From Prochlorococcus sp. AG-402-N08 (lineage in GTDB: Bacteria > Cyanobacteriota > Cyanobacteriia > PCC-6307 > Cyanobiaceae), in the NCBI GenBank assembly GCA_003216535.1, contig QCIS01000005.1:1-64000 (forward strand): DNA of 64,000 bases, read 5' to 3'. Below the pieces are notes generated by a model, which did not search any database, was not told the origin of the DNA, and saw only the letters and a list, made by a program, of their open reading frames with translations. The position numbers and the translations under genes were made by a program. Below are positions 21,506-24,253 of the stretch, one piece after another (position 1 is the stretch's first letter; every line of letters begins with the position of its first letter).

Positions 21506-22138
21506 TTACCATTCTAAAGATTTTGATACAATCGGAAAACTTTGTTTAAAAATATACTTACAATTTTGAGCGATAGACTTGTGTTCTTTTTGGGTACCGT
21601 TAGCTGATCTTAAATGAATGTAATGAATCCAAGATCTGCATGATCCAGACATATAGATTCTGGTTGGGGTTGCTAATGGTAAAACAAATCTCGCACATTC
21701 TTTGGCCACGCCTTCAGCAAGTAAATCTTCATATAATTCTGAAGCAGCCTGAAAATGCAAACCAATTTTTTCATTGAATCTTTTTTTTAACTCATCAGAT
21801 AGGTCAGGAATTGAATTTTGCCTATTTTTAAAATCTTGACGCCTTAATTCGGGTAAGGGAATATTTCCCAATTGAGAACTATCTGCATATCTCTGTGAAA
21901 ATTCCTGAAAAGTAAATGATCTATGTCTTAAAATCTGGGCAGCGATTCCTCTGTTAGTTTCTATTTGTAGGGTCATAAATGACTGTTCAAAAACACTCCA
22001 ATGTTCATTTTTAATACAGTAGCTCAATAATTTCGAATAGTCCTCATTATCCTGATTTTTTGGATTACTTACTCTCGCAATGTAAGCCATTGTTTTTTCT
22101 GCATCAGGAGTTAGCGAAATAAGTTCAACTTTACTCAT
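21506..22138 (-). CDS. thyX: Flavin-dependent thymidylate synthase
   Basis: A 210-residue ThyX that makes dTMP from dUMP using FAD, NADPH and methylenetetrahydrofolate. The signature RHRSFTFQEFSQRY fits RHRX7S near residues 76-85, and the C-terminal segment SGSCRSWIHYIHLR has the catalytic-region residues. ThyX replaces ThyA in these cyanobacteria. The dcd gene ends 1 base upstream on the same strand, giving a dUMP-to-dTMP operon (dcd, thyX). Confidence 0.97.
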   Translation of the reverse strand: MSKVELISLTPDAEKTMAYIARVSNPKNQDNEDYSKLLSYCIKNEHWSVFEQSFMTLQIETNRGIAAQILRHRSFTFQEFSQRYADSSQLGNIPLPELRRQDFKNRQNSIPDLSDELKKRFNEKIGLHFQAASELYEDLLAEGVAKECARFVLPLATPTRIYMSGSCRSWIHYIHLRSANGTQKEHKSIAQNCKYIFKQSFPIVSKSLEW

Positions 22139-22139
22139 T

Positions 22140-22733
22140 TTAGATCTTTGCTAGGGTCACTTTTTCTGGTTGGTTTTGATATTTACCTCTTCTATCTTCA
22201 TAGGTTGTAGAGCATGGATCACCTTCAAAAAAGAGTAGTTGGCAAATACCCTCTTCAGCATAAATTCTGCAATCTGCACCTGAACTATTACTAAACTCCA
22301 AAGTTAGATGACCTTCCCACCCTGCCTCTGCAGGCGTTGTATTAACAATTATTCCTAATCGTGCATATGTACTTTTGCCTATACAGATCACAGTTATATT
22401 TTCTGGTACTTTCATCTTTTCTAAAGCCACTCCTAAACCATAGGAGTGAGCAGGAAGAATAAAAAAGTCTCCATCTTTATCATGGTGAAGAACAGTTTTT
22501 TCTAAGTTATTAGGATTAAACTTTTTTGGATTCATCACAGTACCAGGGATATGTCTGAAAATTAGGAATTCTTTTGATGAAAGTCTTAAATCATAGCCAT
22601 AAGATGAACATCCGTAACTCAAAACTGGCTTTTGTTTATTGTCAGGCTCAAGATGCCTAACTAAATTTGATTGAAAGGGCTTTATCATCCCTTCCGAGGC
22701 TTTTTGATTTATCCAGAGATCATTTTTCAGCAT
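22140..22733 (-). CDS. dcd: dCTP deaminase
   Basis: A 197-residue trimeric enzyme of the dUTPase superfamily that deaminates dCTP to dUTP. Diagnostic parts are PASEGMIKPF-like ASEGMIKPF at the start, SYGCSSYGYDLRLS, GKSTYARLGIIVNTTPAEAGWEGHLTLEFSN in the middle with the catalytic Glu, and a C-terminal GKYQNQ lid. It lies 1 base from thyX and 4 bases after the CobO-like gene, so the three form one tight transcription unit. Confidence 0.96.
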   Translation of the reverse strand: MLKNDLWINQKASEGMIKPFQSNLVRHLEPDNKQKPVLSYGCSSYGYDLRLSSKEFLIFRHIPGTVMNPKKFNPNNLEKTVLHHDKDGDFFILPAHSYGLGVALEKMKVPENITVICIGKSTYARLGIIVNTTPAEAGWEGHLTLEFSNSSGADCRIYAEEGICQLLFFEGDPCSTTYEDRRGKYQNQPEKVTLAKI

Positions 22734-22737
22734 TGTT

Positions 22738-23319
22738 TTATGAGCGAAGTTCGGTAATTTGGTTGGCCATTAATAATAGATCTTTAGGAATATCTGTACC
22801 AGTTAGGATTACATCTCCTGATATAAATCGGTTTTCAAGTGTTGAAATCAAATCATCTTTATCGATAATTTTCATTTCAATAGCTAAAGAAATTTCATCA
22901 AGTATTATTTGGTCATTCTCGCCAGACTGTAGTTCTTTTTTACAAAAATTCCATAATTCAGAAGTGGATTCATGAATAGATTTTTTTAAATTTTCATTGT
23001 TTTCAATTTCTTCAGAATTATATTGATCAAAGGAATGAGATGATCTTACCCAGGTTAAATTGCCGCATAGCTTTACTGCATTATCAACTCCTTGTTTGAC
23101 TCCTCCTTTCATAAATTGTATTAAGAGAACTTTTCTACCAAGAGCAGCATTTCTTAGAGAGTCTCTAATGATAGATGGGTAGCTTCCCCGAAATGAAGAT
23201 TGATAGATTTGAATCTGTCCGTTTTGTGTAAATCTTTTTAAGTTAACTTTTTTAGCAGTATTTATATTTACAACATCAAGATTATTTTTGGAATAAGTAT
23301 GGGATGAGCTAATTACCAT
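22738..23319 (-). CDS. cobO: CobO/BtuR-like corrinoid adenosyltransferase with altered P-loop
   Basis: A 193-residue protein related to CobO/BtuR, which adds the adenosyl group of ATP to cob(I)alamin derivatives. The fold is recognisable in RKVLLIQFMKGG, NLTWVR and the Walker-B-like QIILDEISLAIEMKIID, and GDVILTG near the end. The region that should contain the GxGKGKTTAA P-loop reads QSSFRGSYPSII at about 40-51, so the Lys and Thr that bind triphosphate are missing. Either ATP is bound differently or the enzyme has changed function. It heads the dcd-thyX cluster and is divergent from ntcA. Confidence 0.82.
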   Translation of the reverse strand: MVISSSHTYSKNNLDVVNINTAKKVNLKRFTQNGQIQIYQSSFRGSYPSIIRDSLRNAALGRKVLLIQFMKGGVKQGVDNAVKLCGNLTWVRSSHSFDQYNSEEIENNENLKKSIHESTSELWNFCKKELQSGENDQIILDEISLAIEMKIIDKDDLISTLENRFISGDVILTGTDIPKDLLLMANQITELRS

Positions 23320-23456
23320 TATTTAGATTCTTTCTACATGCAGTATAATTAGAATCTATTGACGCTGCATATAGTGTAATTTTACTTAAAAAAGTGTTAA
23401 GCAACTAGAAAATTACTGAAAAGGACTTATTGATAAACTAATAAGAATCCAAAATT

Positions 23457-23498
23457 GTTACAGTTGATACAAGATATTTTAGAGTGTCTCCTTAAATT
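23457..23498 (+). promoter_or_regulatory. Candidate NtcA-activated promoter of ntcA (autoregulation)
   Basis: GTTACAGTTGATAC at 23457-23470 fits GT-N10-AC and differs from GTA-N8-TAC at one base. TAAATT at 23493-23498 is a plausible -10 element. The distance from the box centre to the -10 (about 31-32 bases) is that of class II NtcA promoters with the box centred near -41. It implies a start near 23504 and a very short leader before the ATG at 23519. Confidence 0.6.
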
Positions 23499-23518
23499 TT
23501 TTAATAGTCAAGATATTT

Positions 23519-24253
23519 ATGATACCTGCTTCACGAGGATTCAACCGCTTTAGTTCGGCACAGTCAGGACAAAGTAAAATTAACTCTGTTGGAGAACGTT
23601 TTCCAATCAATAGAACTTTAATGGAAGTTATAAAAGGTTTAGATGGTGCAAGCACAGAAATGGTTGAGAGATCTAAAACAATATTTTTCCCAGGAGACCC
23701 TGCTGAAAGAGTATATCTTATAAGAAGAGGAGCAGTAAGACTGTCAAGAGTTTATGAGTCAGGTGAAGAAATAACTGTTGCCCTTTTAAGGGAGAATAGT
23801 CTCTTTGGTGTTCTATCTCTTCTAACAGGACATAGATCTGATCGTTTTTATCATGCCATAGCATTCACAAGAGTTGAAATGATAACAGCACCTGCAAATT
23901 CTGTTTTAAGAGCTATAGAGGAAGATGCATCAGTCGGTCTATTACTGTTACAGGGGCTTTCAAGTAGAATCCTGCAAACCGAAACAATGATAGAAACTCT
24001 TACACATAGAGATATGTCTTCTCGTTTAGTAAGTTTTTTAATGGTTCTTTGTAGAGACTTTGGAGTTGCAGGTGAAAAAGGTATTACAATAGACCTAAGG
24101 CTTTCACATCAGGCAATTGCTGAAGCAATTGGTTCAACAAGAGTAACCATTACAAGATTGTTGGGAGATTTAAAGGATTCAGGGCTACTTAATATTGAAA
24201 GAAAAAAGATAACAGTGTTCGATCCAATTGCTCTTGCCAAAAGATTTAATTGA
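23519..24253 (+). CDS. ntcA: Global nitrogen regulator NtcA
   Basis: A 244-residue CRP-family activator that senses 2-oxoglutarate and turns on nitrogen-assimilation genes. The cNMP-like effector domain contains [14 protein letters not shown] and [34 protein letters not shown]. The C-terminal winged helix has [24 protein letters not shown], the recognition helix near residues 205-220. It is about 20 residues longer at the N-terminus than the 222-223-residue NtcA of Synechococcus, and the predicted transcript start is compatible with this longer form. The DUF3084 gene follows closely. Confidence 0.97.

Follow-up and report, generated by a model that had tools for sequence, protein, structure and literature searches.

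What does a protein of the CobA/CobO/BtuR family do once it lacks the P-loop of that family, and how is it connected with the deoxynucleotide genes beside which it is encoded? Both questions are raised by a gene in the window, i.e. the whole 64,000-nucleotide stretch of Prochlorococcus DNA analysed here, for which a first-pass annotation had suggested another mode of ATP binding, a partner enzyme or a changed function. Enzymes that depend on adenosylcobalamin, other than ribonucleotide reductase (RNR), have known chaperones and reactivases. To our knowledge, no dedicated helper has been named that would keep class II RNR supplied with undamaged adenosylated cofactor in a cell that evolves oxygen. 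Here, we followed the gene across the cyanobacterial phylum and compared its inheritance with that of RNR and of the neighbouring genes.

A CobA-like gene upstream of dcd and thyX

The gene occupies positions 22738-23319 and is separated by 4 bases from dcd, which is in turn 1 base away from thyX, in agreement with the initial reading of this locus. The features are as follows:

22738..23319, minus strand: PRK07414-type CobA/CobO-like gene without a P-loop (open reading frame of 193 aa; PF02572 and NF005648 matches; 31-copy alignment)
23164..23211, minus strand: former P-loop segment, residues 37-52, QIYQSSFRGSYPSIIR (alignment to 1g5r/4hut; pN/pS)
22894..22902, minus strand: Walker-B-like L140-D141-E142, kept (alignment of PRK07414, CobO and PRK07413 rows)
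22795..22803, minus strand: T173-G174-T175, where CobO and PRK07413 read TGR (alignment; pattern over 68 copies)
22140..22733, minus strand: dcd, dCTP deaminase (TIGR02274, 119.7 bits; 4 bases downstream of the PRK07414-type gene)
21506..22138, minus strand: thyX, FAD-dependent thymidylate synthase (TIGR02170, 167.5 bits; 1 base downstream of dcd)
23519..24253, plus strand: ntcA, divergent neighbour across a 199-base gap (TIGR03697, 366 bits)

The divergent ntcA is not thought to be part of the PRK07414-dcd-thyX unit. An NtcA site shared with ntcA was considered and rejected, as the two NtcA-like boxes (5/6 matches) in the gap (23320-23518) are not in excess of chance (1.2 expected).

The window protein matches PF02572 (CobA_CobO_BtuR) over residues 33-192 with 78.5 bits, the gathering cut-off being 25.7. 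Its best NCBIfam model is NF005648 (PRK07414, 'P-loop NTPase family protein'), matched at 137 bits and thus below the curated cut-off of 248, which is the case for all PRK07414 copies of the window's family (family f1), the best of them reaching 180.5 bits. The window protein is orthologous to the NF005648 members over the cut-off, with which it falls into one clade and shares the adjacency to dcd (in f7 and other families).

As noticed at the outset, the CobO/BtuR landmarks RKVLLIQFMKGG and QIILDEISLAIEMK are found in the window protein and the GxGKGKTT loop is missing, the loop by which adenosyltransferases of this family hold the triphosphate of ATP. In the alignment to PDB 4hut/1g5r, QSSFRGSYPSII sits at the position of CobA's TGNGKGKTTAAF, and the former loop, which reads SSFRGSYP, places S41-S42-F43-R44-G45-S46-Y47-P48 over CobA G36-N37-G38-K39-G40-K41-T42-T43, with residue pairs numbered by counting from the start of the printed alignment.

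A CobA-like fold is probable from the AlphaFold2 model of the window protein, which was built on a shallow alignment of 37 close copies (pLDDT 64, pTM 0.58). The top four Foldseek rows are all Salmonella CobA (probability 1.00, E 2.8e-3 to 6.5e-3, none at E <= 0.001, TMq 0.47-0.51), and comparison with CobA by VIA gives Z 8.6-8.9 over 139-149 residues with an rmsd of 3.5-5.0, the next row having Z 5.4. Because the model is middling, the pocket of the predicted structure cannot be judged.

Intact paralogues in the same genome

The genome to which the window belongs (97% complete, 28 contigs) encodes a canonical CobO of 233 aa, with GNGKGKTT and over the cut-off of two CobO models, as well as a two-domain PRK07413 protein of 386 aa (NF005647, cob(I)yrinic acid a,c-diamide adenosyltransferase), whose loops EGKGKSQ and EGKGKST are both intact. 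These two genes rule out that the window gene is the only adenosyltransferase-like gene of the genome. PduO as a replacement adenosyltransferase, for which the first-pass annotation had proposed a search, was rejected, no PF01923 match being found in this genome. The same annotation had named a canonical CobO elsewhere in the genome as the observation that would speak against its reading and, as far as adenosyltransfer is concerned, CobO is indeed there, together with PRK07413. Since both have intact loops, the adenosylation carried out by the cell can be accounted for without an altered ATP site. A changed or partner role in deoxynucleotide synthesis is backed by the co-inheritance with RNR described below.

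Loss of catalytic residues across the cyanobacterial group

PRK07414 was surveyed in 386 genomes of the phylum, 186 of which belong to the window's class. Strong copies were identified in 137 of these 186 genomes, under 21 family labels; within the window's family, each of the 58 genomes is matched at E <= 1e-36. As for PRK07414 copies outside the class, the two that were read (L073 and L074) exceed the cut-offs of ordinary CobO models and were rejected.

We read 68 copies, one per genome, for motif patterns. Neither GxGKGK[ST] nor F-x-W[ED] occurs in any of them (0/68 each), and an arginine after TG is likewise found in 0/68 by pattern (one row has no TG; the window protein has threonine), while the [LI][DE]E string, a loose pattern, is present in 68/68. 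Comparison with homologues, as suggested at the outset, thus reveals that the altered loop is not specific to Prochlorococcus, and its decay in Prochlorococcus only is ruled out by the other families that share it. Going beyond the initial observation, the loss of the loop is group-wide and is accompanied by the loss of further CobA landmarks, namely the TGR arginine (R161 of Salmonella CobA) and the F-x-W motif (F91/W93 of the same protein), which in CobA displaces the lower ligand.

The residue alignment comprised 31 PRK07414, 12 CobO, 9 PRK07413-N and 9 PRK07413-C domains, and GxGKGK[ST] is present in all rows of the latter three groups (12/12, 9/9 and 9/9). Two loop glycines, the second loop lysine, the TGR arginine, one glutamate, one aspartate and one asparagine are found in 100% of the CobO/PRK07413 rows and in <20% of the 31 PRK07414 rows. 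What PRK07414 has kept, while the P-loop, the TGR arginine and F-x-W are gone, is the QFxKGG strand and the LDE site (L140 and E142 100%, D141 97% of the 31 rows), the latter being common to the CobO and PRK07413 rows. In addition, several near-fixed residues are peculiar to PRK07414 (R44, at the place of the first lysine of the P-loop, in 30 of the 31 sequences or 97%; W90 100%, Q76 97%, A58 100%), and 17 columns are invariant among these diverse copies. PRK07414 shares with CobA/CobO/BtuR (PF02572; Salmonella CobA 1g5r, 1g64, 4hut) the sequence family, the probable fold, LDE, QFxKGG and TG, but the copies read lack GxGKGK[ST], the TGR arginine and F-x-W of those enzymes.

In the domain tree, drawn with a midpoint root and containing two long-branch rows, the 31 PRK07414 rows constitute one side of a branch with a support of 100/100 and a length of 2.64 changes per column; support for the CobO group is weak (82/27). 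PRK07413 shares the superfamily and co-inheritance with RNR with PRK07414, but consists of two fused domains with both loops intact and is placed in separate clades. A frame-broken PRK07414 remnant with 7 stops in the match was seen at G385:C1:1599676-1600215 (L071), in a genome that keeps PRK07413 and the B12-dependent reductase RTPR, and judging by its sequence would represent a loss of PRK07414 in progress.

Purifying selection on the former loop

For pN/pS, we fetched 80 close loci (79 titled Prochlorococcus and one Synechococcaceae; 82-93% identical) and compared 75 of them with the window copy, dropping five in which the match did not span all 193 codons (the slice being short or holding a stop). 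Over these 75 close copies, pN/pS is 0.20 overall, 0.65 for residues 1-33 and 0.135 for residues 34-193. The former loop (residues 36-52) has a pN/pS of 0.13, which points to purifying selection. Kept under such selection in 75 close copies, the segment owes its altered sequence neither to a sequencing error nor to chance.

Co-inheritance with B12-dependent RNR

All 49 genomes of the class without a strong PRK07414 copy and 31 genomes with one were searched for the adenosylcobalamin-dependent RNR of the RTPR type (TIGR02505), PRK07413 and dcd; ThyX was searched in the same set with one genome exchanged (G330 for G296). RTPR (E <= 1e-50) is present in 31/31 genomes with PRK07414 versus 7/49 without it, and in 79 of 80 further PRK07414-bearing genomes, in several of which it is split into pieces; it exceeds the curated cut-off in 30/31 and 78/80, respectively. 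Overall, RTPR was found in 110 of the 111 PRK07414-bearing genomes tested, which are all those of the class but 26 of the window's family. The 111th genome, G296, has no RTPR and encodes the adenosylcobalamin-dependent diphosphate reductase NrdJ_Z (412.7 bits, cut-off 399.95), and B12-dependent RNR is thus present by model in 111/111. The NrdJ_Z of G296:C20 (L270, 1258-4329) carries an inserted stretch, probably an intein, to which part of a replicative helicase model can be aligned.

Of the genomes with neither RTPR nor PRK07414, 12 were searched with PF02867 and 11 have a match; nine of these were read, and all nine exceed the cut-off of TIGR02506 (NrdE_NrdA, class I type) while falling below that of NrdJ_Z. 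PF02867 matched none of five RTPR-bearing genomes. The twelfth genome, G051, has no match to RTPR or PF02867, yet has PRK07413, and its RNR is therefore missed or outside the assembly. G233, its congener in genus g28, has an RTPR match interrupted by stops.

Phylogenetic dependence was assessed by Pagel tests with a chi-square reference on a single midpoint-rooted FastTree tree of RpoB from 79 genomes, a set picked by PRK07414 status and not by RTPR status, with G131 left off (no rpoB match). Some states were scored by hand: the broken PRK07413 piece of G203 as present, the frame-broken PRK07414 of G385 as absent, thyX of G330 as present from locus L075, and weak Thy1 matches at E <= 0.001 as present. 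Both PRK07414 (LR 40.6, p 3e-8; table [[30,0],[7,42]]) and PRK07413 (LR 45.5, p 3e-9; table [[36,1],[1,41]]) track RTPR. As controls over the same 79 genomes, dcd (p 0.80) and ThyX (p 0.11) show no tracking of RTPR, nor does PRK07414 track dcd (p 0.28). The associations of PRK07414 and PRK07413 with RTPR rest on repeated changes, since parsimony requires 8 changes for RTPR, 8 for PRK07413 and 10 for PRK07414 on this tree. Moreover, the link to RTPR is not simply one to B12 synthesis, because CobO-like matches are kept in 37 of the 42 RTPR-less genomes.

RTPR occurs without PRK07414 in seven genomes (four of one genus, G203, G284, and G385 with its frame-broken copy). PRK07414 is consequently not strictly needed, given that these seven and the cyanophage P-SS2 go without it. 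In G087, PRK07414 is present and no PRK07413 was detected. Among the control genomes, one, presumably that of Synechococcus elongatus PCC 7942, exceeds the cut-offs for RTPR, PRK07413 and PRK07414.

In many cyanobacterial RTPR and ThyX matches, continuity is lost through large in-frame insertions or frame breaks of the sort expected from inteins or introns. Two genomes of genus g38 have RTPR in separate N- and C-terminal halves, which are ~85 kb apart in G085 (C1:2606770-2607573 and 2693823-2696006) and ~720 kb apart on opposite strands in G241 (C1:1109741-1110859 and 1830880-1831911), an arrangement that would fit a gene divided in two and rejoined through split inteins.

Gene order around PRK07414

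The link with dcd noticed in the window is real and common to many families: dcd lies directly downstream of PRK07414 on the same strand in 48/68 loci from 11/19 family labels, mostly at <100 bases; in 12 of the 21 family-f1 loci the two genes overlap by one base. Next after dcd comes thyX, both in the window and in L061 (family f9). No dcd over the cut-off was found in 7 of the 31 PRK07414-bearing genomes; in two genomes of this kind, G286 and G197, dut is near PRK07414, in G197 along with thyX and a deaminase-like ORF. The latter (L180, 2799-3374), located between dut and PRK07414, is dCMP-deaminase-like and was named from its sequence alone. In G296, dut, dcd and PRK07414 are found together (L181). 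PRK07413 lies ~3 kb from PRK07414 in one locus, L056, and nrdJ was not seen among the PRK07414 neighbours in the loci inspected. By gene order, PRK07414 is thus tied to dcd and not to cobalamin genes.

Possible function of PRK07414

We consider it probable, if far from certain, that the window gene encodes a CobA-family protein that has given up ATP:corrinoid adenosyltransfer and now plays an accessory part in B12-dependent deoxynucleotide synthesis. From the loss of residues, the co-inheritance and the position beside dcd, we infer that it assists the B12-dependent RNR route. PRK07413 would act as the adenosyltransferase for this RNR, supplying its adenosylated cofactor or restoring it, and PRK07414 as the non-catalytic partner of PRK07413 or, alternatively, as a scaffold or sensor tying the cofactor step to dNTP output (dCTP -> dUTP -> dTTP). 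The remodelled pocket, with its near-invariant R44 and W90, might bind a nucleotide or, at a guess, a corrinoid. In a more elaborate version, which we put forward tentatively, the two proteins may form a dedicated cofactor-service system for B12-dependent RNR, with the pseudo-adenosyltransferase PRK07414 acting as a partner, a delivery or reactivation factor, or a dNTP-sensing regulator next to PRK07413, whose type is also encoded by a phage that has an RTPR, and coupled to the dTTP branch via dcd. If true, PRK07413 and PRK07414 would be the RNR counterpart of the chaperones and reactivases of other adenosylcobalamin enzymes.

The gene order itself favours a role on the Dcd side, which need not exclude one on the cofactor side. 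PRK07414 could act directly in pyrimidine deoxynucleotide metabolism, binding dNTPs or else working with Dcd or regulating it; its link to RTPR would then be indirect, as RTPR makes dCTP, the substrate of Dcd. The adjacency in 48/68 loci and the overlap in 12/21 family-f1 loci are in keeping with this, as are the dut, thyX and deaminase-like neighbours in genomes without dcd over the cut-off. Nevertheless, we regard this role as unlikely, considering that across the tree PRK07414 tracks RTPR (p 3e-8) and not dcd (p 0.28), that 7/31 genomes have PRK07414 without a dcd match over the cut-off, and that G296 keeps PRK07414 together with NrdJ_Z, which reduces diphosphates and yields no dCTP directly, although dcd does adjoin there. 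Because inheritance follows RNR and not dcd, and because PRK07414 stays with the other B12-dependent RNR in G296, we think it more likely that PRK07414 assists PRK07413 or RNR in the loading, maintenance or sensing of the cofactor than that it is a partner of Dcd.

Retained adenosyltransferase activity, with ATP bound otherwise (e.g. by R44 together with LDE, or by a heterodimer formed with PRK07413), appears improbable. LDE, QFxKGG, TG and W123 are common to PRK07414 and its intact paralogues, and the arginine at the first P-loop lysine in 30/31 sequences would suit such an activity; however, the second lysine and two glycines of the loop, the TGR arginine, and the glutamate, aspartate and asparagine are each found in <20% of the 31 rows, F-x-W[ED] is found in 0/68 copies, and with intact paralogues in the genome nothing requires a further enzyme of this type. 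Even harder to accept is a functionless relic kept by operon structure, which the missing catalytic residues and the frame-broken copy in G385 might suggest: the pN/pS of 0.135 (residues 34-193) and 0.13 (former loop) in 75 close copies, the matches at E <= 1e-36 in 58/58 genomes of the window's family and the 17 invariant columns in 31 copies all argue against it. The association of PRK07414 with RTPR is strong.

In the open-access literature that we searched, we found no paper naming PRK07414 and none linking PRK07414 or PRK07413 with RTPR; in two passages of a Trichodesmium paper (PMC5816740), NrdJ and BtuR are mentioned apart. Within the limits of that literature, the co-inheritance of PRK07414 and PRK07413 with adenosylcobalamin-dependent RNR is new. 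Through it, two families annotated as 'adenosyltransferase' and 'P-loop NTPase' can be tested as components of the B12-dependent route to DNA precursors in phototrophs that abound in the ocean, and it comes with a correction of annotation, as the 'P-loop NTPase' family NF005648 is without a P-loop in all 68 copies read.

Carriage by cyanophages

The published 'cobO' of cyanophage P-SS2 is one of six genes that the paper describing it (PMC2784084) counts as new to phage genomes, with roles that 'remain unclear'. This gene (NC_013021.1, 23802-24836) is of the PRK07413 type (NF005647, 395 bits, under the cut-off of 426), and its product is 49% identical to the PRK07413 of the window's genome over the whole length. 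The RNR of P-SS2 is a class II RTPR (647 bits; NC_013021.1, 6853-9423), and the record also lists dcd, thymidylate synthase (by annotation) and thioredoxin; no separate PRK07414 match was found in it. Judged from these sequences, the pairing of a PRK07413-type protein with RTPR looks functional. Phage-borne PRK07414 was considered for two IMG/VR contigs, whose copies share 92% and 89% identity with that of the window, and rejected, since both are probably host DNA. The phage records matched are P-SS2, through its PRK07413-type protein, and unannotated records from human faecal samples.
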